Assembly: GCA_914767715.1 (NCBI GenBank)
Contig: OU612070.1
Span: 6,651,501-6,715,500, forward strand
Length of the DNA stretch: 64,000 bases
Source: Membranipora membranacea
Lineage: Eukaryota > Bryozoa > Gymnolaemata > Cheilostomatida > Membraniporidae
Reading direction: 5' to 3'
Positions 11,704 to 60,839 of the stretch are shown here, in pieces. The notes below the pieces were generated by a model. It was given only the letters and a program-made list of their open reading frames with translations, was not told the DNA's origin and made no database searches. The stretch's first letter is position 1. Each line of letters starts with the position of its first letter. Made by a program: the position numbers and the translations under genes.

Positions 11704-12778
11704 GGTCCAACACCTCTATTTATTTCCCCATTGCTTTACATGCAAACTATGTTGACTTGTCACCTCAATAGGCCTGCTTCAGGTTCTTTCAATTCTTTAA
11801 CCAGACCACTCAAAATGATGGTATGCTCCTGGTCTTCCATATTGGTGACTATGGGTTGAAAAACGGTTGTCAGAATTTTTTAGTGGCCTCATATATAAGA
11901 CCATTGCAGTTTGCACACATTTCCGGTCTAATTTACATTAGCCAATCCGTATGCATTGATCTTTCAAAAATAATTTTGCAAAAAGAATTTCAAACTTTAA
12001 TTCAATAAATTTCCATTGCAAATACACCTGAAAATATTAACAGGGTTCAATATCACTGATAGTAGTGCTTTTGAATTGGCTGCAGCCTCATTTGTCATCA
12101 GCATACTAATCATTTTATTTTGGAGGATGGGTGCAACAAGTTGACCTTCACCCAATTACAGGTGTATTACCTAATAGTGACCGGACTGACGGTAACGGGT
12201 CTTCAAAGTTGGTCACATAAGACCTCTGTTGGTACGCTAGCATGTCGCGAAGTTCGGAGGCGATCCATCCATAGCGTGACTGGCCACGGCCATTTGACCA
12301 TAAGACCGTTGCCCTCAAAACTCACCTTGTCAGGCTTTGCTCCCTTATTGGTCTCTAAAGTGGTATCTTGCTTTGGTCGCAGCTTACAGATATACAATGT
12401 TCATGACCATCATCAGCAAAGTCTGCAGCCACGGCTCAGGTTGTCTACAGACATAAGACAGAAGAGATGTTAAGCTAAAGTATGACGTATACATGTCATT
12501 TGGAAGTAACTTTTCCTTGTCAAGCGGGGAGATAACTTCAAATAATGACCCATTGACTGAAGATATAGTTGTTTATTGAGTAATGGGGTGGGGTTTTGAC
12601 CTTCAGAAATCATTCAATGAGACACTCATTAATTCAACACACTTAAATCTAGTTAGAGTCTTATAAAGAAGAAGAGAGAACAAGTCCGGACTTGCCCGAC
12701 AGGTGCAAATTCATGTGCTGTAAGCACCAGGCGAAGTGTTTTATGAGGTTAAGATATAGTATAGTCATATTGATTGAG

Positions 12779-13205
12779 GATTGGGGTGTAATATTGGGGT
12801 TTGGGGTTGGCAGCCTGAGGTATGCGAGCCAAATTTGGGGTTTTGGGGTCAGCTTTTGGGGTTTAGGGGTCAGGTTCGGGTCAATATTTGGGGTTTGCAG
12901 TTCGCAGTTTGGGGTTTGCAGCCTACACTCTGGGGTTCACGGCCTACTTTCTGGGGTTTGGGGGTCATAAACGAGGGTTTGGTGTTTAGAAGTCAGTTTT
13001 TGGGGTTTGGGGGTCACTTTTTGGGGTTTGAGGGTCAATATTTGGGGTTTGCAGTTCGCACTTTGGGGTTTGCAGCTCACAGTTTGGGGATTGCAGCATG
13101 AATGAAGTTTTGGGTTTGCAGCTCACATTTTGGGGTTTGTAGCTCAAAGTTTTGGGTTAACAGCTGGCAGTTTGGGGTTTTTGGGGTCAAGAGCGGATTC
13201 AGGGG
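12779..13205 (+). repeat. G-rich minisatellite (TTTGGGG...), core of unit 1
   Basis: Irregular tandem units of about 20-30 bp built on TTTGGGG, interleaved with TTTGCAGCTCACA or GGGTCA. Runs of four or five G at short spacing make it a G-quadruplex candidate on this strand. The same array is at 18,737-19,190 (inverted) and 25,940-26,400. Frames through it give repetitive Gly/Phe/Leu peptides and are not genes. Confidence 0.9.
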
Positions 13206-13849
13206 TCAACAGTTGACGGCATAATGCTCAACTAACCCAGCACTCTTTTCCAACACATATCTTCTTAGTACCAATATTATTATGTTAACCTAGTTCATAC
13301 AGGACAAGCCACCAGCCCACCCCCCCCCCCTCCTGCCCAAACCTACCGGTGCCCACCAATGTCACCAACCCTTAAATGTTCCATAACCTACCCAGCCAGG
13401 TCACTGAATAATGTTTTTCCTTTTAAAGCTGCGTTTACATGTGAGACAAATCGGCTAATAATAACAACTCCGACACGGGTCACCGATTTGATTGACCGTG
13501 TAAACAGTTAATCTGTGTTTAAATCTGTGTTTAAATCTGTATTGTTCAAAATCGTTCACTTGTGACAATGTCACAAGTGAACGACAGATCTTAACGATTA
13601 TGAATGGCTCAGCCAATAAATGAGTATAAGTAATGATGATCATTATATTTCTCTCACCCTTTCCTTGTCCTTAGCAGCAACTTGTACAGCTGTTATAACA
13701 GTTATTGCTGCTGCTGCTATTATAACATCTTCATCAGATGATGAATCATACTATACTACCCAGTGGGCACACACCAAAATAACACTAGTGGTGATATGGT
13801 AAAAACTCTACGTAGCAGTTTTACGTGTGGTACACGTGACAGCCGGGTG

Positions 13850-14940
13850 TAATTAACACCAGACCAGTCAAACACGTGTTGACCACGTGTGGCTATGGTG
13901 TTGTTTACCCCTGAATCTTCAAAATAATCAATCACTTAATATACCGGTGGTTGTTACTTGAAATTACAGTAAAATCTAAGGCTTCTAATCTGTCAGATTT
14001 CAATTATTTCAAAAATGTTTAAATGGCCAGCTCAACCACCCACAAACGTGGTGATCACGTGTTGAAATGGTAAAGACTTTCACCTGACCAGACTAACCCG
14101 TGTTGACCACGTGTGGCTATGGTGTTGTTTACCCCTGAATCTTCAAAATAATCAATCACTTAATATACCGGTGGTTGTTACTTGAAATTACAGTAAAATC
14201 TAAGGCTTCTAATCTGTCAGATTTCAGTTATTTCAAAAATGTTTAAATGGCCAGCTCAACCACCCACAAACGTGGTGATCACGTGTTGAAATGGTAAAGA
14301 CTTTCACCTGACCAGACTAGCCCGTGTGGACCACATGTGGCTATGGTGTTTTATGCCAATTAACTATCCGAGAAAATAACACCAAATACAATGGGGATAG
14401 CGACATGAAATTATAGTTATAAATATGACTTCTTATCAGTTAGATTTAAATGTTATTTCCAATGTTAAAATGCCCAGATCAACCACCCACAAACGTGGTG
14501 ATCACGTGTTGAAATGGTAAAGACGTTCACCTGACCAGACTAACCCGTGTGGACCACATGTGGCTATGGTGTTTTATGCCAATTAACTATCCGAGAAAAT
14601 AACACCAAATACAATGGGGATAGCGACATGAAATTATAGTTATAAATATGACTTCTTATCAGTTAGATTTAAATGTTATTTCCAATGTTAAAATGCCCAG
14701 ATCAACCACCCACAAACGTGGTGATCACGTGTTGAAATGGTAAAGATTTTCACCTGACCAGACTAACCCGTGTGGACCACGTGTGGCTATGGTGTTTTAT
14801 GCCAATAAACTACCCAAGAAAACAACACCAAATATAATGGGGGTAGTGATGTGAATTTATAATAATAAACAAGGCTTCTAATCAGTAAGATCGAAGTTTT
14901 TTCAAATTGTTTAAATGGCAAGAGCAACCACCCACAAACT
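13850..14940. repeat. Left subterminal array: five ~224 bp units
   Basis: The landmark GGCTATGGTGTT occurs at about 13891, 14115, 14339, 14562 and 14785, i.e. period 223-224. Units fall into an A-A-B-B-C order by internal sequence. Each contains CACGTG-type palindromes (GACCACGTGTGG, GTGATCACGTGTTG). This resembles the subterminal transposase-binding arrays known from large DNA transposons; the function here is inferred. Confidence 0.9.
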
Positions 14941-17239
14941 GGTTGAGCAAATAGTATTTGGAATAAAGCCCACTGCCAATTGTTAGACTAATATGCTCTA
15001 TATTGGAACAAAAGGAGTTATTCAATTCCTGTGTCAGGCTGCTGTTGTTGAGAGGCACCACCATGCTACAGCCATTGCCACGTCTCCAAGGCTGAGAGGA
15101 TTACCATAAAGCACAACACTTTATTTGTGAATAGGGAGCCTAGCTTAGCGTAGGAATGCCACGTAGCTGTGGTATACTACAATCCTATCAAAGGCCTAGT
15201 TTACTATGCTTTGCTATTGTAGGAAAATATTGAAGTAAATTTTGCGCAAGATGGAACATACCATACTTAAGCTACCGATGACTGGGGTGTGATAGATTAT
15301 GGTGCCAGGACGTCAATTATATTTGCCATAGCTCTAGGTGGCTTTGGAGGTCAAAGTGTACATAATCGCATTGCAAACTGAATGCATGATGTCTCCTACC
15401 AGAAAATTAATCAGGTTTCGTGCATGTCTAAACTTCGCAACTCAGCTGTGCACCTTAGATAGATACTTTGCCTGCTCAGCAAAGTTTTCAATGTAGATTG
15501 GTACAACTATCAATAACTTTGGATTTGTGCCACCTAGTGATGTCTTCTTTACCAAATTGCAAAGTCATGTTGAGTCAACATCAGCAAATATTTGGTTACA
15601 GGTTTGGGGTAGGACACATTGTGCATTTTTATTGTAGCCCATGGCAAGCGATCATTTAGGCATCTAAAACACAAAGCATATCTGTCTAATTTCTGTTATA
15701 TATTATAGTAATTTTAACGAGTTTGAGACTAACTAACACCCTCTCTGGCATGCCAGGTCGGTGGCGTAAGGTATTTAAGCTTGATCCGCAACAAATCATT
15801 TATATTTCACATATTCCAGAGCCTGAAAGAGGAATTTGGTTGCCATTTGAAAAAGGGTTATGTGACACAGATATAACTTAAAAATTTTGTCAACCTTACA
15901 ACTTGACTTTACAATTTTGCAGTGCAAAATTGCCCAGAGTTGGTGTGACAAACGGCATTTTAGTCCTACTATCTAAATATCATTACATTGCCAATGTCTA
16001 CACCCACTATGATCATCATTGCTATTATACAATTCCTATACAGTACCTTTACACAGATACTAAATATACAATGCTACTACACAATTATAATTGTTTTGCT
16101 TTACACACTTGGTCAATTAATCCCCTGCACTGTGACTTTGCTCTATGCTCATTTCATTGGTCGACTAGCAAAGTGCACTGAATTGTGGGAACGGTTATTA
16201 GCTAGCGCTTAGTTTGAATTGTAGAACTGGTGTAACTACTACCACTACTAGTGCAGCCCTTCATAAATCTATTGGTGCTGGTATAAATGCTGTGGAATCA
16301 TCATGCATCATCTTCATTTGATGTTGTTACTCAAACTTATCACAACTAAACTATCTACTAGTAGAGAGACAATTACTATCAGCACAACTCTCATTGGAAT
16401 ATCGACCCTGCATCTCCTCTGGATCATATCTAACTACTTACAACTACCACCGTGATTGAAGTTGAAAGTCTTCTTGGAACAGTACAACTACCAACCACCG
16501 TGATTGCTAACAGACTCGTTTGAAGGGTGAGTGACTGGCCTCAGACGAGTCAGTATTTGTACTACTATTTCATCTTGTAGGCCTACTACTCACTCTTGCT
16601 TGCATGACTTATTCTACGACAATCAATGGTAGGTAGAGAGAATTTATAATTGTTAGTAGTCTGTAGTTAGTCTGCCATCAAATTGTTCCCATTAGCATCT
16701 CACAAGGTTACTTGCAGGGTATTGAGTGTCTCTACGCAAGTTGGGTCAATCTAATGTGAGGCGATAAATATGGCAACATAAATGTATTGGTACAGCAGTC
16801 AATGTTATTTTCTTTCTTGTATTCTAGGCTGGGCGAAGCAGTGGCACTGGAAGCTAGTCAGACAGACGTAACTACCAGCAACGCCTGATATTCATATTTC
16901 CTCTCATTCTCTTTTTTATCTGATATTTATATATTAATTACCCATGTTCAATTTAATTCAATCTGCCGCCTTAATTCATTTTAATGCCTATTCTCGAAAC
17001 AGATATTTTAACCAGGTTAACATTTTGTTCTTACTACCCAATTAATTGTCACTTGCATATAATGTTTTTTATTTGATGTATATATTGTGATATACCCAAA
17101 CAAGGCTGTAAAATGACTATTACGCCACTATTCTGCTGCATATAACCAGAAACAGAATTCAAAAAGAACAATACATCATCTGATGTTAAATAAACAAGTA
17201 TGCAAAGTAGATGTGCTGATTAGGTGAAATTAAAGCAGA

Positions 17240-17610
17240 ATAATACAAACAACACCGCAATGCCACGTGATATAGCCGGACATGCAACGTGGAGGTGTTG
17301 ATATGGTTAAGTTCAATCAGACCAATTCGGACAACACCACATCACCACGTTATATAGCCGAGTATGCAACGTGGAGGTGTTCATATGGTTCAGTTTAATC
17401 AAACCAATTCGGACAACACCACGTTATATAACCGAGTATGCAACGTGGAGGTGTTCATACGGTTAAGTTTAACCAGACTTATTCAGACAACACCACATCA
17501 CCACGTAATATAACCGTGTGTGCAACGTAGAGGTGTTGATCTGGTATAACTCAATTTTTGCCCCACGAGATATTGTCGTGTTATTCACGTGTTCACAACG
17601 TGGTGGTGTT
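17240..17610. repeat. Right subterminal array: ~82 bp units
   Basis: GCAACGTGGAGGTGTT recurs at about 17284, 17366, 17440 and 17522 (one unit 8 bp shorter), alternating with CAACACCAC...CACGT. It shares the ACGTG word with the left array but not the rest of the unit. Confidence 0.85.
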
Positions 17611-18632
17611 GGTTTGGTACATTTCTACGTGGAAATCCGTTACATATACCACCGGATTTTCACCAAACCAGCACGTGTTGAGTCCGTAAAATACACGGGT
17701 TCCCAACGTGTTTGTGCCCACTGGGTACTACTAATAATCTTACTATACATGACTTCTGTCAGTCTCAGTCTGCAGGGGCACAACAGTAGCCTTTCAGTTA
17801 GTTAGTTAAATCTTTTAGTAGCCTTTCAACTAGGGAGACTAGTGAAGGAGTCTCCAGTCTCCACTCTCCAGCTATGAATTACTAACTAGTTACTAGCTAA
17901 TACTACTACTGAATAAACCAACTAGTTGTACTAGCCAATCAGAGACAAGTTGAGTTGCAAGTTTGTGTTGAAATCGGTTAGGCATGAACAGTGTGTAAAT
18001 AGCGTATCGTTGACATGTTGACAGACAACGATTATAGAGCAGATTCATAATCTGTGTCGGAGTTGTTATTATTAGCCGATTTGTCGCACATGTAAACGCA
18101 GCTTAAGTTGCTATATTTACTGCAATCAGCTGATTGTGCAAATTGTCTGCTAGTGCTACTATTAGGTCCAACACCTCTATTTATTTCCCCATTGCTTTAC
18201 ATGCAAACTATGTTGACTTGTCACCTCAATAGGCCTGCTTCAGGTTCTTTCAATTCTTTAACCAGACCACTCAAAATGATGGTATGCTCCTGGTCTTCCA
18301 TATTGGTGACTATGGGTTGAAAAACGGTTGTCAAAATTTTTTAGTGGCCTCATATATAAGACCATTGCATCTTGCACACATTTCCGGTCTAATTTACAAT
18401 AGCCAATCCGTATGCATTGATCTTCCAAAAATGATTTTGCAAAAAGATTTTCAAACTTTAATTCAATAGATTTCCATTGCAAATACACCTGAAAATATTA
18501 ACAGAGTTCAATATCACTGATAGCAGTGCTTTTGAATTGGCTACAGCCTCATTTGTCATCATCATACTAATCATTTTATTTTGGAGGATGGGTGCAACAA
18601 GTTGACCTTCACCCAATTACAGGTGTATTACC

Positions 18633-20257
18633 ATAGGTTAACATAATCATATTGGTACTAAGAAGATATGTGATGGAAAAGAGTGCTGGGTTAGCTGAGC
18701 AACATGTCGTCGTGTTGAACCCCAACTGTTGACCCCTGAATCCGCTTTTGAGCCCAAAAATTCAAAACTGCCAGCTTTTAACCCAAAACTTCAAGCTTCA
18801 AACCCCAAAATGCGAGCTGCAAACCCCAAACTTCATTCATGCTGCAAACCCCAAACTGTGAGCTGCAAACCCCAAAGTGTGAACTGCAAACCCCAAATAT
18901 TGACCCTCAAACCCCAAAAAAGGACCCCCAAACCCCAAAAACTGACCCCCAAACCCCAAAAACTGACATCTAAACACCAAACCCTCGTTTATGACCCCCA
19001 AACCCCAGAAAGTAGGCCGTGAACCCCAGAGTGTAGGCTGCAAACCCCAAACTGCGAACTGCAAACCCCAAATATTGACCCCGAACCTGACCCCTAAACC
19101 CCAAAAGCTGACCCCAAAACCCCAAATTTGGCTCACATACCTCAGGCTGCCAACCCCGAACCCCAATATTACACCCCAATCCTCAATCAATATGACTATA
19201 CTATATCTTAACCTCATAAAACACTTCGTCTGGTGCTTACAGCACATGAATTTGCAACTGTCGGGCAAGTCCGGACTTGTTCTCTCTTCTTCTTCTTTAT
19301 AAGACTATAACTAGAAGTGTGTTGACTTAATGAGTGTCTCCTTGAATGCATTTCTGAAGGTCAAAACCCCACCCCATTACTCAATAAACAACTATATCTT
19401 CAGTCATTGGGTCATTATTTGAAGTTATCTCCCCGCTTGACAAGGAAAAGTTACTTCCAAATGACATGTATACGTCACACTTTAGCTTAACATCTCTTCT
19501 GTCTTATGTCTGTAGACAACCTGAGCCGTCGCTGCAGACTTTGCCGATGATGGTCATGAACATTGTATATCTGTAAGCTGCAACCTAAGCAAGATACCAT
19601 TTTAGAGACCAATAAGGGAGCAAAGCCTGACAAGGTGAGTTTTGAGGGCAACGGTCTTATGGTCAAATGGCCGTGGCCAGTCACGCTATGGATGGATCGC
19701 CTCCGAACTTCGCACCATGCAAGCGTACCAACAGAGGTCGTATGTGACCAACTTTGAAGACCCGTTGCCGTCAGTCCGGTCACTATTAGGTAATACACCT
19801 GTAATTGGGTGAAGGTCAACTTGTTGCACCCATCCTCCAAAATAAAATGATTAGTATGATGATGACAAATGAGGCTGTAGCCAATTCAAAAGCACTGCTA
19901 TCAGTGATATTGAACTCTGTTAATATTTTCAGGTGTATTTGCAATGGAAATTTATTGAATTAAAGTTTGAAAATCTTTTTTGCAATTTCATTTTTTGAAG
20001 ATCAATGCATACGGATTGGCTCATAGAAATTAGACCGGAAATGTGTGATAAATGCAATGGTCTTACATATGGGGCCACTGAAAAATTCTGACAACGAATT
20101 TTCAACCCATAGTCACCAATATGGAAGAGCAGAAGTATACCATCATTTTGAGTGCTATGGTTAAAGAATTGAAAGAACCTGAAGCAGGCCTATTGAGGTG
20201 ACAAGTCAACATAGTTTGCATGTAAAGCAATGGGGAAATAAATAGAGGTGTTGGACC
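18633..20257 (-). mobile_element. Unit 2: truncated, inverted S-R copy
   Basis: The terminal repeat R (reverse orientation) is 19789-20257. The core S (reverse) runs 19788 to about 18634, where it is cut within ...TAGGTTAAC at the junction with unit 1. Its second terminal repeat is missing. 18634-20257 is an almost exact reverse complement of 24860-26487 in unit 3, including identical incidental reading frames of 117 and 97 codons. The outer flank of R is minisatellite (TATATGGCTTC). Confidence 0.85.
18737..19190 (-). repeat. G-rich minisatellite, inverted copy in unit 2
   Basis: C-rich on this strand (CAAACCCCAAA words with TGACCCC spacers), the reverse complement of the array at 25,940-26,400. 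The G-rich strand is the minus strand. Confidence 0.9.
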
Positions 20258-20434
20258 TATATGGCTTCAAAAAAATAAAAAGATCTCGAAAAGAGGTCAA
20301 GGCCTTGTATGGCTTCAAAAAAATAAAAGGATCTCGAAAAGAGGTCGATGCCTTGCATGGCTTCAAAAAAATAAAAAGATCTCGTAAAGAGGTCAAGGCC
20401 TTGTATGGCTTCAAAAAAATAAAAAGATCTCGAA
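20258..20434. repeat. Minisatellite block between unit 2 and the transposase element
   Basis: About three and a half units (GGCTTCAAAAAAATAAAAAGATCTCG and AAAGAGGTCAAGGCCTTGTAT words, period near 58 bp). It ends GATCTCGAA directly before the left terminal repeat. The last GAA is the left copy of a putative 3 bp target duplication. Confidence 0.9.
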
Positions 20435-20903
20435 GGTAATACACCTGTAATTAGGTGAAGGTCAACTTGTTGCACCCATCCTCCAAAATAAAATGACTAG
20501 TATGCTGATGACAAATCAGGACCCAGGCAAGTTGATAGTACTGCAGTCAGTAATATTGAGGCATGAAAATGTTTCCTGTTGTATTTGCAATTGAAATTTT
20601 GGTGATTTGAGGTTTTAAATAATTTTAGCAAAATCAATTTGGGGCGCTTTATGCAGACAAGTCAGTTGAGGCAAAATTAGCTGGAAAACCTGTAAAAATG
20701 CACTTGCTCCGTTTGATTGAGCACCGAAAAAATCTGACAACGAATTTCCTTTCAATATTCTCAAGTATGTCAGAGCAGAAGCAGACCATCGTTTTGAGTG
20801 GTCTGGTTAAAGAATTGAAAGAAGCTGAAGCAGGCTTTTGGAGGTGAGAAGTCAACATAATTTGCATGTAAAGCAATGGGGAAATTAATAGAGGTGTTGG
20901 ACC
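20435..20903 (-). repeat. Left LTR-like direct repeat R' (469 bp)
   Basis: Runs GGTAATACACC...GGTGTTGGACC and is alignable over its full length to R of the non-autonomous units, but as a distinct subfamily. It lies downstream of the transposase gene and immediately upstream of the nuclease frame. Confidence 0.9.
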
Positions 20904-20941
20904 TAATAGTGGCATTAGCAGACAATCAGCTGACGTTACAA

Positions 20942-21343
20942 ATGAATGATAAACAAAACAAACAAAACAAACAAATGTCTTCTTGGCCACCTTATACTTT
21001 GTGGCACAGCAAGTTGATGGCACGGGTGCAGGCTTCTGCCTCTGGGGGTTGTTTGGTGTGGACTGGTGGCACATCATCCAGGGGTTATGGTATGATGAGG
21101 GTTGAATGGAGTGATGGGGAGAGTAGGGTGCTGGGTGTGCATAGGGTAAGGATGATGTGTTCCCTCCGCACCACACAGCTTCCAGTTGGCTACGAGGCCT
21201 CGCACTTGTGTCACAACAAGCTGTGCCTTTCGGTCCACCACCTGAGCCTAGAGCCAAACTGGGTAAATATGCAGCGCAGGAGGTGCTCTCATGACAGCAA
21301 GTGCAGTGGCCATGCTGCTGGCTACCCGAACTGCTTGATTTAA
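20942..21343 (+). CDS. I-PpoI-like His-Me finger (His-Cys box) endonuclease
   Basis: A single-exon frame of 133 codons from ATG 20942 (an ATG at 20975 gives 122 residues; a still earlier ATG lies in the terminal repeat and is less likely). The N-terminal part has GGCLVWTGGTSSRGYG and GVHRVRMM, like the beta-sheet DNA-contact region of this family. The core is EASHLCHNKLC...HHLSLE, where the His of SHLCHN is the expected general base and the Cys/His residues form zinc site 1. Then VNMQRR supplies the Asn that ligates the metal, and C...C.GH....C forms zinc site 2. All catalytic and zinc residues appear present. The family (zf-His_Me_endon) is known from the group I intron homing enzyme I-PpoI. 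Here it sits inside a DDE transposon, tail to tail with the transposase; it might aid targeting or copying. That role is inference. Confidence 0.85.
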   Translation: MNDKQNKQNKQMSSWPPYTLWHSKLMARVQASASGGCLVWTGGTSSRGYGMMRVEWSDGESRVLGVHRVRMMCSLRTTQLPVGYEASHLCHNKLCLSVHHLSLEPNWVNMQRRRCSHDSKCSGHAAGYPNCLI

Positions 21344-21649
21344 TAATTATCACTACTATCAGGTACTGTACTGTATTCACTCATCTGCTGCCCCCCCCCA
21401 TCTGATTTGGTGTTTGCTTTCTCATATAATAAATTATCTGGCTATAATCCCTCATTGCACACACACTCTCACATATGGGTTTTGTAATGAAGACCCCGCT
21501 TGCATGTATTATCATTACTCATTCCTGCCCAGACATGTCCAGACATGTTTACTGCTTATTTCATATATTCATATGTTACTGTGTGACGTTGTGTAGCATT
21601 GTATTGTATGATAGAACATTGTGTGTATGTAAAGAAAAAAACAAGATGT

Positions 21650-23549
21650 TCATTGAGGCTGAAAAGGGTCGTTTTGGCCCTTGCAATAATCACGCTCAAC
21701 TGAGCGCGAAAGGCGAGCGGCGACTCTGCTTGTCGTTTTGCTGCAGATATAGTCATGGTCACGATTTTCAACGGCTATCTTTCTTTTGATCCAATCTTGG
21801 GCCGCTCTCATGCGGCTCATTGCCCTCATCTTCTTATACTGTCCGCTTATTTGTAGTGCTCTTGCACGTTTGATACTTTTTTGCTGCGACTGAAGCCGCT
21901 TGATTGCATTTCGGCTTAACGGGCAGCCGACATCGGCAAGCTTCTTTGCCACAGAGCCATGTCCATTGTTGTGGCGGTAAACTGCACTGCTGGCTCTGCC
22001 GCGGTAGTTTTTACTGAATAGGACATTCTTTGGCATATTTTTACTCAATGCCCTGTTAAATGCCTCGTTGCGCTGTGTACTAAAGCCAAGCTTTGTCGCT
22101 TGAAGGGCGTTGGCATGAAGGCGAATATTGAAAACATCTAACAGTTTTTTTTTCTCTTCTTCGTTGCAGTTTATATGCCCGAGACCGGCAGCACGGAACA
22201 GTGAGCTACTGAGCATCCAGTTGTCCTCTTCTGTCCCGCAGCAGCTGCTGCCAACCAGTCTAGAACACATCTGATGATTGCCGCCGAAGCACTCCACGGC
22301 CGTACTGACCAGATGATTTACTTGGATTATCGATAAACCCAGCTTGGACGACTGCTGCGCAATGATACTCGAACGGTACTTGACGTCTTTTGCCAGCAAC
22401 TTCTTAAGTGAGTCAATTGTCTTTACCCTGGCGCAACTGAATGTCTCTTTCCTGAAGTTCACCTTCTCTACAGCTCTAACCTGTGAGTTGCCCAGGTGAG
22501 ATGGGTCGGACTGGGCCGTAACAGTCCACTTCTCTGGCCTCGCACTCAACAAAGCCTGATAGGGCTTTGCACCCTGCCCATCGTTGTCCGATGTCACCGT
22601 CACCGGGATGAGCCCACGTGTCAGCAAGCTCACGCCCAATTTGGTATTCATCGGCCCCTCCAGAATGTTCTCCTCTTTGGGCAGGGTGGCACTGCAGTCA
22701 TGCTGCGTGCGTTCATGGGCACAGACTGCTGCGTTGTTGTGCTGGCCCAGCCTGCACCCCTTTGAGCAGACCTTATTCTCGATGACGTAGTCTAATACGC
22801 TCCCCGTACAACTGTCGATGGCAGTCGTGATGGCTTGTGTGGCACAGAGGCCCATCTTCTTTCTATTGCCAAACCTTGACGAATTGTAGCGGCTGTCCAC
22901 TGATATGGCAACCTCCCCCTCCCTCCCCCCGCTCAGGCCCAATAGTTTGTTATCATTTAATTTTTCCCCTGCCAGTCTGCTCAGATCTCTGTTATTTATG
23001 TCTGTCATCTCATTGTCCACAAGCTTGGCCAGCTTCTGGCAGTTGGATTGAGCCAGCGGGGACATGTCAAGTGATGCAAACAGCTGACATGCCCCGTGCA
23101 TGCCAAGGCAGCTATCCTGCACGGCATGCCCAAATTGTTTGTTGATAGCTGCCCTCTTCGGCCCCCTCCTACTCTCCTGCGCTGCTTTGTAGAGCGGATA
23201 AACTTTAGTAAAGCTGCACCCTTTTGACTCGCATGTTAATGATATGCTGCATGTTAGGCCTTTCTTTCTTGTGACGCCCATACCGATGACCCACTCCTGG
23301 CAAGTTTCCAATGTCTTGTGGCACTTCTGGAAGTCCTGCAGCGCATGCAGCATCATGTCCATGTTGACCACAAAGTTTCCCACACCCTTAGCCTCATTGC
23401 CGTTATCTGACTGCTCTAATTTTTTGTCTTTGCAGGTTGAGCGAGGCCGAAGAACTCTCATACCAGCATTCTCTCCTCGAGCTGTTCTCACCACCAGACG
23501 TCTGCAAGCAGAAAACCAGCAGATGTCAGTCTACACTCACATATATTTG

Positions 23550-23591
<42 letters not shown>

Positions 23592-23838
23592 CCTCGTGTA
23601 TGTGACTACACCCGTTAAGAATGAATAAAATCTGGTCAAAGCCAATAAAACAGCAGTTTCATGCGTCAAGTCAAGCTCACCCATTTTTCTCCTCAATGAT
23701 GCGCCTATATTGGCTGCTCTCGAGCCTCACCGTCCTGCGGCTGCATTGTGGGCTAATCACTCGTGTCGCTACTCTATCATCGCCTGGCTGAAATCCATTA
23801 AGTTTATTAGCGATTCGCTTTTTATTTAAACGTGGCAT
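21650..23838 (-). CDS. Mutator-like DDE transposase (two exons, about 669 residues)
   Basis: Exon 1 is 23838-23681 (ATG, MPRLNKKR basic start) and exon 2 is 23501-21650 (stop TGA). The 179 bp intron has a GTGAGC donor and a TTGCTTGCAG acceptor, contains a TA microsatellite, and the phase is kept (GG|A). Residue numbers are for the spliced protein. The core shows a first catalytic Asp in ISVDSRYNSSRFG (about 256), a Cys/His cluster (CSKGC...H...C...HDC), a second Asp in TVTSDNDGQG (359/361) and QSDPSHLG (386), then VECFGGNHQMC. This is the layout of the 'Mutator-like transposase' domain common in invertebrates. The C-terminus is basic (RAARLSR-type), fitting DNA binding. The frame is undamaged. 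The right-hand direct repeat lies about 460 bp upstream and may hold the promoter. Assignment is by motif pattern only. Confidence 0.8.
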
Positions 23839-24301
23839 GATTATAGACGAGCTACCTTGCAGTCGACACGCATTCTTACTTACTTTGCGGTATTCTTGGT
23901 ATTCTAATGGCTCATGCAACCCACGGTTACCCGTAATCGGGAGTTGCTTGCTCGGGTATCAAGAGCAGGCGACTCCTTATGCGGTAAAGGCAAAATATAT
24001 ATTGAAACATACATGGTAGAGTCTGCTGTTGACCCCGGTATTACTTTTTTCCATCTAGGTTTCCGGATGAAGGCACGTTGTTACCGAGAGAGCAATTATC
24101 AGATGGTCATATTCACGAAACTACTGAAAATAGATGGCCGAAAAAGTAAGCGAATACTCATCGAGTGCCTGTGTCTAAAACATGTCTGGACATGTCTGTA
24201 GTGCCCTGATCGTCATAAAATCCCGGTTTCTTGTAGGATACATGCTCTAGCTCACTAGGACAGCATATTTATGTCATTGGCAATCGCCACGCTCACTATT
24301 A

Positions 24302-24770
24302 GGTAATACACCTGTAATTAGGTGAAGGTCAACTTGTAGCACCCATCCTCCAAAATAAAATGACTAGTATGCTGATGACAAATCAGGACCCAGGCAAGTT
24401 GATAGTACTGCAGTCAGTAATATTGAGGCATGAAAATGTTGCCTGTTGTATTTGCAATTGAAATTTTGGTGATTTGAGGTTTTAAATAATTTTAGCAAAA
24501 TCAATTTGGGGCGCTTTATGCAGACAAGTCAGTTGAGGCAAAATTAGCTGGAAAACCTGTAAAAATGCACTTGCTCCGTTTGATTGAGCACCGAAAAAAT
24601 CTGACAACGAATTTCCTTTCAATATTCTCAAGTATGTCAGAGCAGAAGCAGACCATCGTTTTGAGTGGTCTGGTTAAAGAATTGAAAGAAGCTGAAGCAG
24701 GCTTTTGGAGGTGAGAAGTCAACATAATTTGCATGTAAAGCAATTGGGAAATAAATAGAGGTGTTGGACC
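24302..24770 (-). repeat. Right LTR-like direct repeat R' (469 bp)
   Basis: About 99% identical to 20435-20903 and in the same orientation. It is 5' of the transposase start, so it occupies the position a promoter-bearing LTR would have. Its outer edge GGTGTTGGACC is followed by GAA of the minisatellite. Confidence 0.9.
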
Positions 24771-24859
24771 GAAAAGAGGTCAATGCCTTGTATGGCTTCA
24801 AAAGAAGATCTCGTAAAGAGGTCAAGGCCTTGTATGGCTTCAAAAGAAGATCTCGCAAA
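24771..24859. repeat. Minisatellite block between the transposase element and unit 3
   Basis: About one and a half units (AAAAGAGGTCAATGCCTTG, then TATGGCTTCAAAAGAAGATCTCG). It starts with GAA (right duplication of the transposase element) and ends CTCGCAAA, whose AAA is the left duplication of unit 3. Confidence 0.9.
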
Positions 24860-27150
24860 GGTCCAACACCTCTATTTATTTCCCCATTGCTTTACATGCA
24901 AACTATGTTGACTTGTCACCTCAATAGGCCTGCTTCAGGTTCTTTCAATTCTTTAACCATAGCACTCAAAATGATGGTATACTTCTGCTCTTCCATATTG
25001 GTGACTATGGGTTGAAAATTCGTTGTCAGAATTTTTCAGTGGCCCCATATGTAAGACCATTGCATTTATCACACATTTCCGGTCTAATTTCTATGAGCCA
25101 ATCCGTATGCATTGATCTTCAAAAAATGAAATTGCAAAAAAGATTTTCAAACTTTAATTCAATAAATTTCCATTGCAAATACACCTGAAAATATTAACAG
25201 AGTTCAATATCACTGATAGCAGTGCTTTTGAATTGGCTACAGCCTCATTTGTCATCATCATACTAATCATTTTATTTTGGAGGATGGGTGCAACAAGTTG
25301 ACCTTCACCCAATTACAGGTGTATTACCTAATAGTGACCGGACTGACGGCAACGGGTCTTCAAAGTTGGTCACATACGACCTCTGTTGGTACGCTTGCAT
25401 GGTGCGAAGTTCGGAGGCGATCCATCCATAGCGTGACTGGCCACGGCCATTTGACCATAAGACCGTTGCCCTCAAAACTCACCTTGTCAGGCTTTGCTCC
25501 CTTATTGGTCTCTAAAATGGTATCTTGCTTAGGTTGCAGCTTACAGATATACAATGTTCATGACCATCATCGGCAAAGTCTGCAGCGACGGCTCAGGTTG
25601 TCTACAGACATAAGACAGAAGAGATGTTAAGCTAAAGTGTGACGTATACATGTCATTTGGAAGTAACTTTTCCTTGTCAAGCGGGGAGATAACTTCAAAT
25701 AATGACCCAATGACTGAAGATATAGTTGTTTATTGAGTAATGGGGTGGGGTTTTGACCTTCAGAAATGCATTCAAGGAGACACTCATTAATTCAACACAC
25801 TTAAATCTAGTTAGAGTCTTATAAAGAAGAAGAAGAGAGAACAAGTCCGGACTTGCCCGACAGTTGCAAATTCATGTGCTGTAAGCACCAGACGAAGTGT
25901 TTTATGAGGTTAAGATATAGTATAGTCATATTGATTGAGGATTGGGGTGTAATATTGGGGTTCGGGGTTGGCAGCCTGAGGTATGTGAGCCAAATTTGGG
26001 GTTTTGGGGTCAGCTTTTGGGGTTTAGGGGTCAGGTTCGGGGTCAATATTTGGGGTTTGCAGTTCGCAGTTTGGGGTTTGCAGCCTACACTCTGGGGTTC
26101 ACGGCCTACTTTCTGGGGTTTGGGGGTCATAAACGAGGGTTTGGTGTTTAGATGTCAGTTTTTGGGGTTTGGGGGTCAGTTTTTGGGGTTTGGGGGTCCT
26201 TTTTTGGGGTTTGAGGGTCAATATTTGGGGTTTGCAGTTCACACTTTGGGGTTTGCAGCTCACAGTTTGGGGTTTGCAGCATGAATGAAGTTTGGGGTTT
26301 GCAGCTCGCATTTTGGGGTTTGAAGCTTGAAGTTTTGGGTTAAAAGCTGGCAGTTTTGAATTTTTGGGCTCAAAAGCGGATTCAGGGGTCAACAGTTGGG
26401 GTTCAACACGACGACATGTTGCTCAACTAACCCAGCACTCTTTTCCATCACATATCTTCTTAGTACCAATATGATTATGTTAACCTAGTTCATACAGGAC
26501 AAGCCACCAGCCCACCCCCCCCCCCCTCATGCCCAACCCTACCGGTGCCGACCAATGTCACCAACCCTTAAATGTTCCATAACCTACCCAGCCAGGTCAC
26601 TGAATAATGTTTTTCCTTTGAAGTTGCTATATTTACTGCAGTCAGCTGATGGTGCAAGTTTGTCTGCTAGTTCTACTATTAGGTCCAACACCTCTATTTA
26701 TTTCCCCATTGCTTTACATGCAAACTATGTTGACTTGTCACCTCAATAGGCCTGCTTCAGGTTCTTTCAATTCTTTAACCATAGCACTCAAAATGATGGT
26801 ATACTTCTGCTCTTCCATATTGGTGACTATGGGTTGAAAATTCGTTGTCAGAATTTTTCAGTGGCCCCATATGTAAGACCATTGCATTTATCACACATTT
26901 CCGGTCTAATTTCTATGAGCCAATCCGTATGCATTGATCTTCAAAAAATGAAATTGCAAAAAAGATTTTCAAACTTTAATTCAATAAATTTCCATTGCAA
27001 ATACACCTGAAAATATTAACAGAGTTCAATATCACTGATAGCAGTGCTTTTGAATTGGCTACAGCCTCATTTGTCATCATCATACTAATCATTTTATTTT
27101 GGAGGATGGGTGCAACAAGTTGACCTTCACCCAATTACAGGTGTATTACC
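24860..27150 (+). mobile_element. R-S-R unit 3: complete 2,291 bp non-autonomous element
   Basis: Direct repeats R are 24860-25328 and 26682-27150 (469 bp each); the core S is 25329-26681 (TAATAGTGACC ... TTCTACTATTA). AAA is on both sides (24857-24859, 27151-27153), and the joined flanks recreate a minisatellite unit (CTCGCAAAGAGATC). The core contains a G-rich minisatellite and no gene. This is the cleanest example of the repeat-core-repeat plan and supplies the empty site for the insertion nested in unit 1. Confidence 0.88.
25940..26400 (+). repeat. G-rich minisatellite in unit 3
   Basis: TTTGGGG-based irregular tandem array, nearly identical to the inverted copy in unit 2. Many GGGG/GGGGG runs occur within 10-20 bp of each other. 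Confidence 0.9.
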
Positions 27151-29558: not shown

Positions 29559-32337
29559 TGAATTCTGAATTTGCATTTTTGAATGTCCGTGGAATTACCG
29601 GCAAAATAGAGGAGATAAAATCAATTTTGCATCAACGTAAATTCGTAATTCTAGGATTAGCAGAAACATTTTTGAATGAGCATGATCGTGTTGGTATTTA
29701 TGCGGTGCCAGGTTATCAGGTGATTAGGAGAGATCGGTGATATGGTTACGGTGGTAGTCTTATTGCCTATATACATGAATCCGTGCAATTCGAACATCTT
29801 GCAGATTTTGACAATAGCATGCCTGAGTCTATAACTATCAAAGTAAAGCCAAGTACAAATAAAAGTTGTTTAGTCTCGTTTATATACAGGCCTCCCAACT
29901 CCATGTCCGCATGGTATGATCTTGCTTACGAATACTTTGAAAAAGCTTTTTCACTGTATAATGAAATGATTATACTTGGAGATTTTAACATCAACATCCT
30001 TGAACAAAGAAGCAACAGAAAGTGGTTGAATATTGTTAAATCTTTTTCCTTCCGTCAATTGATCTCGGAGCCAACAAGAGTTACAGAAACATCCAGCACC
30101 CTGATCGATCACATATACACAAATCTGCCCTCAGACATGTCAGAGAGTGGAATTATAAAATATTGAATGAGTGATCATTACTTAGTTTTCATTAAAAATT
30201 TATTTTCCACATTAAAGGTAAAAGCAAAAAGAACACCATTTGAATTCAATGACTATTCCAAATTTACAAACCAGAATATACATGACCTTTTTTCAGGTCG
30301 TCACTTTAATGATGTATTGTGTGAGAATACTGTAGACCGTATGTATGCAAGATTTAATGACACCTATAGTTCATTAATCAAAACACTTGTCATCACCAAG
30401 AAAAGATTTGTAAAAACTGCTCAACTGCCCAAATGGTTAGATGATGAGGTAAAATCACACATGCATTTGCGTGATAGATTGAAGAGAGAGAGGGCAAATG
30501 GGAAGAATACAAAATTCAACGCAATTATGTTACAAATTTGATGAAGAAGAAGAAAAAAAATCGGTTATTTCAGATATAATTAAAAATAACAAAAATAACA
30601 CCAAACCCGTTTGGGAAGCTTTAGGAATCAATCAAACTAAAATTTCACCGATGATCAATATCGGTGGTTTATCCCCTGATGAATTGAACAGACACTTTAC
30701 ATCGATTGCAAAATCCATAACCAAAGACATCCCTGATTCCCATGAATATAACATGATTAGACCAGTGACAACCCAAACGTTTTCTCAATTGACTCGCTTT
30801 ACTCCAGAAATTTGTTTCAAATATCTAAAAAACATTTCTGACAATAAAGCAACTGGTCATGATGGAATATCTGTTAAGGTTTTGAAGAAAACATGGCCTT
30901 ACATATGCGACATTGTAACTGACATGTTCAATAGAGCATTAATAGAGGGTGTATTTTTTTCACAGCGGAAAACTGCAAGAGTAATTCCTATTCATAAGGG
31001 TGGAGATATCAAAGATCCATCTAATTATCGCCCTAAATCAATACTTCCTGTGCTATCTAAGATTTTTGAGAAACATGTGAATTCCCAAATTCAAAAATAT
31101 CTCACCACAAATGAACTTCTTCACAAATTACAATGCGGATTTAGAGAAGGTTATTCCTGTGTTGATTCCCTACACAAACTCATTTCTGACTGTCTGTCAG
31201 CAAGATCAGATGGTCACTTTGTTGCTATGATGTATTTGGATTTCAAAAAAGCTTTTGACTGCGTCGACCATAAAATTCTTCTGAAAAAATTGACAATGTA
31301 CGGTATAATGGGCAAACTGCACTCTCTCATAAAATCTTTCCTAACAGATAGGACACAATTTGTAGCTATACAACAAGGTGCAAAAAGTTCAATAATTCTT
31401 CCAATAGACATTGGTGACCCCCAAGGCTCAATTCTGGCACCAAGTTTATTCCTCATATACGTCAATGATCTTTTATCCTACAAATTACATTCCAAGGCAT
31501 TTGCCTACGCTGATGATACAGTTTTCGTATCAAAATCTGACAACTTTGATACACTTAATGATTTATGTGATACTGATCTAAACTTGATAGAAAGTTGGTG
31601 TAGGAATAATAGGATGTCGTTAAACATAAAAAAATCTCACTATATGCTTGTACAACCCTCTCATAGAGCCACATCTCTAGATTTAGATCTAAAAATTAAC
31701 CATAAAAGACTAAACTGAAATGCCAATACCAAACTCCTTGGTTTTACTTTGAATGACTCATTGAGATGGGACGATCATGTAGACCAGATTTGCACCAAAA
31801 TAAACAAAGGTTTGGCATTATTTCAGAAATGCAGGGCATTCCTAGATAGTAAATCATCTCGTAACTTTTATTTCCAGTATGTCTTTTGTCATATGATATA
31901 TGGCATCCGCAACCTATCACCACAATATATTCTTGAAAGAATATACTTGCTCCAAAAGAGGGCTTTCCGCCTAATAGCAAATGTCAACCACATACCATAT
32001 CATCTAATACATACAAGAGATTTACATACATCTCTTGGTCTGATTCCTTTTCCTCTCCTTGCTGGTCATTTCACCTGTATTTTTGGTTTTCAAATTTTGC
32101 ATTTGATTGCACCTGACTTTCTTTTGGAAGGCTTTATTCCAACTAGCTCTAAAACCTTTTTTTAGAGACAAATACCTATTACATTATCACACTGATCAAT
32201 TAATTATTATTAAAAAAATCACTACAACTTTTAACTCTTTACCAATTCAGATACGCTCAGCAACCAAACTTACTCATTTTAAACAACAACTATCAAAGCA
32301 CTTTATATATATCCTATTAATTCTTGTTACTTGAGTA
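29558..32337 (+). pseudogene. LINE ORF2: APE-type endonuclease and reverse transcriptase, broken
   Basis: The endonuclease part has LAETFLN, FIYRPPNS, ILGDFNINIL and SDHYLV. The reverse transcriptase has YLDFKKAFDCVDH, GDPQGSILAPSLFLIYVND and FAYADDTVF. A C-terminal region follows (LLGFTLNDSLRWDDH, LQKRAFRLI). Lesions: in-frame TGA codons at 29738, 30164 and 31716; two compensating frameshifts between about 30,490 and 30,560 (the second in an A run); and a frameshift near 32,110-32,165. Read through these, the order and spacing of domains is complete, so the copy decayed after a full-length or near full-length insertion. Confidence 0.9.
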
Positions 32338-58235: not shown

Positions 58236-60839
58236 ATGGGTTGCGGATCAAGTATAAGTGCAGGCTCTATTCAAGTAGCCCTAGCTCCTGCAGCAGGTAA
58301 AAATAAACAGATAGAAAACTGTTCAATTTACTTGAACTGTGTTAACTCTAGATTCTGCTAACATTGTCATTGACAAATATAAAAGAATAACATTCATGTT
58401 AAACAATTTAATTAGTACCATATAACTCTCCACAAGGCAAAATGTTATCCTTTGATTGTTGCTGTCAATTATATAGACTGTATAATAGGACTCTTGTTAT
58501 GAATTACAGACGGAAGGCAGCACATGATCGGATTTCATATATCAGCTATTCGAAAATTCATACGGGACCACCCAAAAGTCACCAGTGACCATCTCACAAC
58601 GTCACAGATCAACAAAGCGTTTATCAAACCTGAAACAGATGGGACGAATGGACCATTCATTAACAAGTATATAGGTTTCAAAGACCCTGAAACGGGTGTG
58701 CCACTCGTATCTCAGGCCACAGTGTTTGTGTCACATGCGTGGAAGTATAAATTCTATGACGTCGTAGTAAGCGTTATGGAACAATATGCCAGCAAACATC
58801 CAGATGCCTATTTCTGGTTTGATCTATTCACGAACAATCAGAATGAAACAGTGAATAAGGATTTTGACTGGTTCAGCAATACTTTTCGTAACAGTATAAG
58901 AGAAATAGGTCAGGTACTTCTTGTTCTCTCACCATGGAACGATCCGATTCCTATTCGTAGAGCGTGGTGCCTGTTTGAGATTCACAATGCCGTTGAAGAG
59001 TCTGAGGTACAGCTAACAATGGATATCCCTTTTAACGAGGTTAACGACCTGAAGGAAGGTGTCACCGAGGATCCTAAATGTGTGGTTCAGGCTTTAGCTG
59101 ACATACAGGCTAAGAAAGCTGAAGCTACTTCGCCGTTCGATCGAGAGCTAATATTCAAGGCTATTAGCGAGATGGATGGCGGCTTTTCACGGGTAAACCA
59201 GCGAGTGAAGGATCAACTGAGAAGCTGGTATGTTGACCAATTAAAGCTCCTCATAAACAGAACAGGAGATGATACCACACTTATGCGTAGGAGTGCTCAT
59301 GTAATGAGGCAGTTTGCATTTTATGATGAGTCGCTTTTCCATTATCACAATGCTCTTCGTATAGACATCAAACTATATGGTAAAAATCATATTAATGTGG
59401 GTGATTCTTACCATGGCATGGCTGTTGTGTATGACATTAGAGGAAACTATGAACAAGCTCTGGATAACTACAAAAAATCATTAGAAATCAGACAAGAGTC
59501 ATTAGGTGAGAATCATCCTGATGTAGCTGCCTCCTATAATAACATGGGCATGGTGTACGGCAGTAAAGGTGACTATGATAACGCTCTGAGTCACCACAAC
59601 AAATCTCTCAAAATCAAACTGGACACATTAGGTGAGAATCATCCTTCTGTGGCTGCCTCCTTTAATAACATGGGTGCTGTGTACAAGGAGAAAGGTGACT
59701 ATGATAACGCTCTGAGTCACTACAACAAATCTCTCAAAATCAAACTGGACACATTAGGTGAGAATCATCCTGATGTAGCTAACCCCTATAATAACATGGC
59801 CACAGTGTACCACATTAAAGGTGACTATGATAACGCTCTGAGTCACTACAGCAAATCTCTCAAAATCAAACTGGACATATTAGGTGAGAATCATCCTTCT
59901 GTGGCTAACTCCTATAATAACATGGGTACTGTGTACAACAGTAAAGGTGACTATGATAACGCTCTGAGTCACTACAACAAATCTCTCAAAATCAAACTGG
60001 ACACATTAGGTGAGAATCATCCTGATATAGCTGGCCCCTATAATAACATGGGCATTGTGTACAAGGAGAAAGGTGACTATGATAACGCTCTGAGTCACTA
60101 CAACAAATCTCTCAAAATCGAACTGGACACATTAGGTGAGAATCATCCTTTTGTGGCTAACTCCTATAAAAACATGGCTAATGTGTACGACAGTAAAGGT
60201 GACTATGATAACGCTCTGAGTCATTACAACAAATCTCTCAAAATCGAACTTGACACATTAGGTGAGAATCATCCTGATGTAGCTGCCTCCTATAATAACA
60301 TGGCTAATGTGTACGACAGTAAAGGTGACTATGATAACGCTCTGAGTCACCACAACAAATCTCTCAAAATCAAACTGAACACATTAGGTGAGAATCATCC
60401 TTCTGTGGCTGCCTCCTATAATAACATGGGTGCTGTGTACGAGGAGAAAGGTGACTATGATAACGCTCTGAGTCACTACAACAAATCTCTCAAAATCGAA
60501 CTGGACACATTAGGTGAGAATCATATTGATGTAGCTGCCTCCTATAATAACATGGCTAATGTGTACGACAGTATAGGAGACTATGATAAAGCTCTGGATT
60601 ACTACAGCAAAGTAGTAAAAATCAGACTGGACACATTAGGCGAGAATCATCCTGATGTGGCTACCTCCTACTACAACATAGCTATCGTGTACAACAGTAA
60701 AGGTGACTACGATAACGCTTTGGATTACTTCAATAAAGCACTTAGCATCTATAAAAGCGCGCTTGGTGATAGCCATCCGGATGTTGCCGATACCCGCCAT
60801 ATTGTCAAGCTGCTCCAAGAGCAAATGGAGAATTTGTAA
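58236..60839 (+). CDS. Myristoylated TIR-like/TPR protein, two exons, about 796 residues
   Basis: Exon 1 is 58236-58296 (MGCGSSISAGS...) and exon 2 is 58510-60839; the junction is in phase 1 with GT-AG borders. MGCGSS at the N-terminus is a classic N-myristoylation plus palmitoylation signal, implying membrane attachment. Residues about 90-200 form a TIR-like domain: TVFVSHAW (93-98), a FWFDLF strip, VLLVLSPW and RRAWCLFEI, whose Glu (about 177) lies where the catalytic Glu of WCL.E-type TIR domains lies. From about residue 295 to the end there are some twelve TPR units of 42 residues (kinesin-light-chain/TPR_12 type) with GDYDNALSHYNKSL and LGENHPDVA as the repeated core. At DNA level these are 126 bp units that are almost identical. 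A poly(A) signal AATAAA is at 60932. The family resembles sensor/effector proteins of innate immunity; the ligand and NADase activity are inferred, not shown. Confidence 0.9.
59500..60770 (+). repeat. In-frame 126 bp tandem repeats encoding TPRs
   Basis: Ten consecutive 126 bp units are highly similar (AAAGGTGACTATGATAACGC and TTAGGTGAGAATCATCCT recur almost unchanged). Differences cluster at two spots: the codons after GTGTA(C) (VYGS, VYKE, VYHI, VYNS, VYDS, VYEE) and those after AATCAT (HPS, HPD, HPF, HID) with the next few residues. Such homogeneity indicates recent expansion or gene conversion. Confidence 0.95.

Follow-up and report, generated by a model that had tools for sequence, protein, structure and literature searches.

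A probable KolobokP transposon family with paired long direct repeats in the bryozoan Membranipora membranacea

KolobokP DNA transposons were described by Kojima & Bao in 2022 (PMC9587614), and statements on them here follow the parts of that paper that describe their features. These give the architecture LTDR-INT-LTDR, an internal region (INT) between long terminal direct repeats (LTDRs) of ~450 or ~660 bp, which have short inverted ends of their own and 5'-RR..YY-3' termini. Solo and complete copies are flanked by duplications of 3-4 or 4-5 bp, and these duplications (3-5 bp) lack a strong target preference. The transposase is characterized by DDD/E residues, a C/DxxH signature, a CCHC finger following the first D and a zinc finger preceding the last E; a His-Me (I-PpoI-like) nuclease is encoded downstream on the opposite strand. 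Solo LTDRs, INT-INT or multimeric forms and shorter non-autonomous forms are also reported; at INT-INT joints a micro-deletion of 3 or 4 bp is almost constant, and 1-5 bp are lost beside excised LTDRs. The authors put KolobokP in the Kolobok superfamily and not among Mutator-like elements (MULEs), discuss nuclease-aided unequal crossover as well as an IS26-like translocatable-unit circle, and list Membranipora membranacea as a host in their Table 1. Here we describe element C, located at 20435-24770 in a 64,000-nucleotide stretch of the M. membranacea genome (GenBank assembly GCA_914767715.1, contig OU612070.1, positions 6,651,501 to 6,715,500, forward strand), referred to as the window. Element C is very probably a KolobokP DNA transposon with shorter relatives devoid of its two genes, moving at the DNA level via the ends of its repeats (R).

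Element C is 4336 bp long and consists of a left LTDR (R4, 20435-20903, plus strand), an INT (20904-24301, plus strand) starting with TAATAGTG and ending with CACTATTA, and a right LTDR (R5, 24302-24770, plus strand). Both repeats measure 469 bp, lie in the same orientation and differ at four positions, and the termini of the element are GG..CC. A target-site duplication, GAA, is found on the left at 20432-20434 and on the right at 24771-24773, as read from the flanks and from a comparison with the empty site: joining the flanks minus 3 bp gave a 41/42 match to the adjacent minisatellite unit, compared to only 30-33 of 42 matching when 0-2 or 4-6 bp were removed. Every R unit in the window is bounded by inverted GGTnnnACACCTnT (all 14 ends), with GGTAATACACCTGT at one end and GGTCCAACACCTCT, inverted, at the opposite end. 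Perfect matches to GGTNNNACACCTNT occur 14 times in the window, which are both ends of seven R units and nothing else; with up to one mismatch there are 15 matches versus 3.68 expected, and none of 100 shuffles gave 15. The initial annotation, made from the letters alone, had reported two 469-bp direct repeats with about four differences, a GAA duplication that restores the minisatellite, and repeats that each form a unit with inverted ends. All three observations hold, the coordinates to the base.

We then consider insertions across the genome. A search with R', a repeat type ~75-78% identical to R, yielded at least 45 matches (best 40 of 466 candidates), and the genome-wide counts are lower bounds. 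Both outer flanks were readable at intact outer R ends for 22 insertions, namely 11 complete R-INT-R elements (two of them in the window, and one, C5:23847484, internally deleted through its INT and left R), the other 11 being single R. Truncated, nested, inverted and one-sided places were excluded, including elements A and D of the window as well as C2:17492608, C2:2386779, C3:26918918, C3:32539471, C3:32572860, C7:25242599, C7:8695668, C8:449060, C8:612177, C11:22241313, C1:1559058, C2:38498443 and C2:38497967. An exact 3-bp duplication was found in 21 of the 22 insertions (11/11 complete, 10/11 single R), and flank pairs mixed across insertions agreed at 3 bp in only 45/462. At the target, C-ATA-G is weakly preferred. 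It is at the ends of R that movement takes place; 3 bp are duplicated on insertion, and lone R copies carry a duplication of the same kind. The initial annotation had proposed aligning copies at their ends and flanks and searching for solo repeats with 3-bp duplications, and had held that an inconsistent duplication, or R inserting independently on both sides of the transposase, would speak against its interpretation. Neither was seen, as the duplication length is the same in all insertions but one and none of the 11 complete elements carries a separate duplication around each R.

R and INT, too, join at a fixed point. Left joints fall at one exact base position in 57 cases (up to one mismatch), and the reversed pattern was found in none. 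Among 52 perfect INT left ends, 47 adjoin R, four meet another INT at its right end, and one (C9:7983718) adjoins other DNA. The suggestion that R is an independent short transposon similar to a miniature inverted-repeat transposable element (MITE), which by chance came to flank a transposase gene unrelated to it, would fit the common single R with 3-bp duplications and the finding, described below, of one INT lineage with either R or R'. However, the outer flanks of R-INT-R agree in 11/11 elements, the inner flanks are INT ends and not duplications, duplications of each R on its own are lacking as stated above, and the 57 joints share a single position, so that we regard a chance assembly as very improbable.

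The four INT-INT joints lie at three places (two 1.3 kb apart on C3) and all read GGTCAC-TAATAGT, with the joint between the two motifs. They occur in three INT sequence variants, as judged by eye. Because all four are identical and lack the same 5 bp relative to an INT right end plus an INT left end, they suggest that R left precisely at these positions; the published KolobokP joints differ in being 3 or 4 bp short (PMC9587614, feature description). The INT-INT array on C1 is bordered by R on one side and by a rearranged fragment on the opposite side, and the array on C5 has R at the left and none in the stretch examined at the right. A full (LTDR-INT)n-LTDR was not traced end to end in any case. 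At C1:1558136-1559626 and C2:17491108-17494577 the copies are rearranged, containing inverted R or INT right ends that point in both directions.

The INT of element C encodes two proteins with recognizable domains. On the minus strand a long frame matches the Pfam model PF20700 'Mutator' (E 2.2e-31) and corresponds to the intact spliced Mutator-like transposase of the initial annotation. Exon 1 (23681-23838, read from the sequence) starts with MPRLNKKR, exon 2 (21650-23501, stop codon included) carries the Pfam match, and a single intron (23502-23680) is predicted from GT..AG splice sites chosen by eye, which gives a predicted spliced product of ~669 aa. D212, C255/C270/H277/C279, D315 or D317, D342xxH345, a finger starting at C414 and E489 were assigned by eye, and the DDD/E, C/DxxH and zinc-finger features of KolobokP can be recognized in the transposase at the level of such motifs. 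AlphaFold modelled the transposase with low confidence (mean pLDDT 56.7). The second gene (20975-21343, plus strand, 122 aa from a start codon chosen by us) encodes a predicted His-Me finger nuclease, which matches PF05551 with E 3.8e-11; this Pfam family comprises zinc-loop homing endonucleases of the I-PpoI-like kind. It is located 3' of the transposase gene, on the opposite strand and at the other end of INT. Its residues S97, H98, H110, E114 and N119 were matched by eye to residues named in the nuclease description of PMC9587614. A likeness of the INT-R joint to the I-PpoI site was dropped as too weak. The nuclease is present at 7/11 loci searched and 100% identical in three (the window and two others). 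The remaining two frames of at least 120 aa in element C, and two in element B, had no Pfam match at E 0.1, and neither the nuclease nor a transposase profile matched any sequence in the PDB.

Relatives of the transposase in public protein sets numbered eight (43-91% identical, among 8000 candidates scored), none was confirmed in the viral contigs and genome contigs scanned, and R searched against plasmids gave no match. Within the genome itself the transposase matched at least 94 stretches (best 70 of 239 candidates). Among those listed, the full 626-codon frame is open in three, the window, C1:10668637 and C11:22238678, the last of which is without the left R and part of INT. Many decayed transposase fragments, some beside an R copy at 86-88% identity, were observed within ~0.8 Mb at C7:11668639-12466975, and this chromosome 7 cluster resembles an old amplified array. 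In a single chromosome-level genome there is a young family whose transposase frame is open in three copies, whose nuclease is identical in three, and whose 3-bp duplications are precise.

The transposase gene also bears on how the element is copied. Exon-intron-exon aligned end to end in 5/5 other transposase-bearing copies compared (85.5-92.8% identical), with no intron-less copy among them, and the retained intron implies that copying does not proceed via spliced RNA. The direct repeats, the lone repeats and the likeness within pairs give an LTR-like appearance, as of an element resembling an LTR retrotransposon that is copied via RNA and has captured a DDE enzyme, but besides the intron the two genes on opposite strands, the ends GG..CC in place of TG..CA and the lack of a reverse transcriptase in the five Pfam-scanned frames of element C (all frames of at least 120 aa included) argue against it, and we consider such an origin extremely improbable. 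LTR retrotransposons share with this family the alike direct repeats of each element and single repeats with the same duplication, and differ in intron and reverse transcriptase.

Taken feature by feature, the family agrees with the published description of KolobokP (PMC9587614) in its LTDR-INT-LTDR architecture with direct repeats of 469 bp, in total length (4336 bp for element C, 2291 bp for element B), the own inverted ends of the repeats, GG..CC as a form of RR..YY, 3-bp duplications, a DDD/E transposase combined with a His-Me nuclease in opposite orientation, solo R, INT-INT joints and non-autonomous forms. The initial annotation had found no superfamily to name for a cut-and-paste-type enzyme between long direct repeats. 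This kind of element is, however, already known from that 2022 publication, and therefore the claim of a discovery falls. Canonical Kolobok elements are set apart by a TTAA duplication of 4 bp, in place of which varied 3-bp duplications are found here. MULE/MuDR elements have terminal inverted repeats and duplications of 8-11 bp. The family matches the Pfam model named for Mutator-like transposases and yet has long repeats that are direct, not inverted, and duplications of 3 bp, not 8-11 bp. With bacterial composite and pseudo-compound transposons of the IS26/IS6 type, which PMC9587614 cites as well, it has in common that the bounding repeats each possess inverted ends and that lone repeats occur, in line with the bacterial likeness drawn in the initial annotation; in contrast to them, the repeats here are without a transposase gene, which lies between them.

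To see how left and right repeats stay alike, we compared nine R' elements with both repeats, among 28 R' copies, with gap columns counted. Left and right differ at 41 columns, and the odd base is private at 39 of these; the remaining two represent a single column that recurs in two elements. At C6:22281087, left and right agree with each other and deviate from the consensus at nine columns, one of them confined to that element, and both repeats of element D differ from those of element B at 22 columns. A second comparison covered 1083 columns common to six INTs, chosen for having most or nearly all of the short INT. The INT of element B, which has two R, is 99.2% identical to that of C9:14479983, which has two R', and element D, also with two R, has an INT 99.0% identical to that of C8:2332066 (two R'), while the INTs of B and D are 96.7% identical to each other. 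Between B and D the R repeats are 94% alike, compared with ~75% between them and the R' of the C9 and C8 elements. Two INT lineages thus each occur with an R pair and with an R' pair, so that both repeats must have been replaced together in two lineages; the idea that R and INT types travel together was rejected, since each INT lineage occurs with either R type. Mixed R/R' pairs were found in 0/12 direct pairs (the 11 complete elements and D), in a sample found via R' and hence biased; in the rearranged copy at C2:17492608, R and R' lie on opposite sides in an inverted arrangement. Within an element the left R resembles the right R, and between lineages the two have changed together, as in LTR elements. 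The retained intron, the private differences between left and right and the swapped INT lineages point to such joint renewal of R pairs without copying at the RNA level.

Several routes might lead to these patterns. The transposase encoded in INT might pair the inverted ends of one R, giving a single R, or alternatively the outermost ends of two R, so that the whole unit would move, and the paired ends would be joined to the target with a 3-bp stagger. Recombination between the two R might then keep them alike, perhaps with stimulation by the His-Me nuclease; alternatively, a one-R circle that inserts replicatively might do so. For recombination or conversion we see a roughly even chance. In the IS26-like alternative, recombination between the two R would yield a circle of one R and INT and leave a single R behind, and replicative insertion of the circle by the transposase, through both ends of its R, would restore R-INT-R with a 3-bp duplication. 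Direct repeats, identity of left and right at insertion, single R with duplications and the joint replacement of both R in two INT lineages would all be accounted for, and a translocatable-unit circle is also raised in the discussion of PMC9587614. At the INT ends beside R there is an inverted TAATAGT/ACTATTA, which would extend the symmetric flank of R only in a circle or tandem; this fits and proves nothing. Since conversion between the two R yields the same identity pattern, and INT-INT joints suggest that R can depart alone, the circle appears to us a reasonable candidate that is probably not the answer. The stronger version, that both repeats are renewed at each move by a replicative one-R circle and that the inverted INT ends are part of the recognition site, we hold only as a tentative and rather doubtful proposal. 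If true, it would amount to an LTR-like life cycle on a DDE transposase without reverse transcription, and to a eukaryotic counterpart of the IS26 cointegrate. A route that is neither recombination or conversion nor a one-R circle seems unlikely. The Membranipora family, with INT lineages in which both repeats were swapped, makes the question of repeat likeness and nuclease target considered in PMC9587614 testable in one species.

Some observations weigh against a KolobokP transposon moving via its R ends. Among single R, C5:18899018 has no duplication, and C3:32539945 and C1:1558236 (2/11) adjoin other R sequence; C4:31303103 and C4:27248715 have common flanks and represent one event, not independent ones. 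In element C both repeats are off consensus at ten columns, and none of these is confined to C. Six of the nine elements compared are a recent burst (0-4 differences) and uninformative, because with so little variation they would look alike under any model. The placement in KolobokP was made by the published description of features, and we infer that the transposase is the protein acting on R.

The seven R units of the window, all with exact ends, belong to four elements, A to D. Element C had been described correctly in the initial annotation, which overlooked its nuclease gene and the three shorter relatives. Element B (24860-27150, minus strand, 2291 bp, without transposase) comprises R6 (24860-25328), INT (25329-26681) and R7 (26682-27150). 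R6 and R7 have no differences, the duplication is AAA (plus strand), and the empty site matches at 41/42 at exactly 3 bp versus 27-30 for other overlaps. Element D (11704-18632, minus strand) has R1 (11704-12171) and R2 (18165-18632) with 12 differences between them, and its INT is interrupted by a 4.7-kb insertion (~13426-18104). This insertion has inverted ends of ~51 bp (AGCTGCGTTTACATGTG...) and a possible TTAA duplication, and carries tandem arrays of 223 bp and ~80 bp units. Element A (18633-20257, plus strand) is left-truncated, with INT at 18633-19788 and R3 at 19789-20257. R3, R6 and R7 are identical to one another, and INTs with ends present start with TAATAGT and end with CACTATTA. 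Sequence comparison within the window found no DNA in elements A, B and D that resembles element C in its transposase or nuclease region. At 18632/18633, R2 of element D directly abuts the interior of the INT of element A, and this junction, with neither minisatellite nor matching 3 bp between, suggests a deletion between the neighbouring elements.

The elements sit in or beside a 42/48-bp minisatellite with four arrays in one orientation. We do not regard the minisatellite as belonging to the element: the arrays run one way and the elements both ways, which makes it a target, and the 41/42 empty-site matches of B and C agree with this. The short INT contains a 21-bp minisatellite of its own (TTTGGGGTTTGCAG...; 18763-19126 and 25995-26356). 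Elsewhere in the window, reverse-transcriptase-like frames, LINE-like by eye, are located at 29741-32162, and a single 778-aa frame at 58503-60836 has about ten 42-aa repeats that by eye appear tetratricopeptide-like, with a DNA unit of 126 bp.

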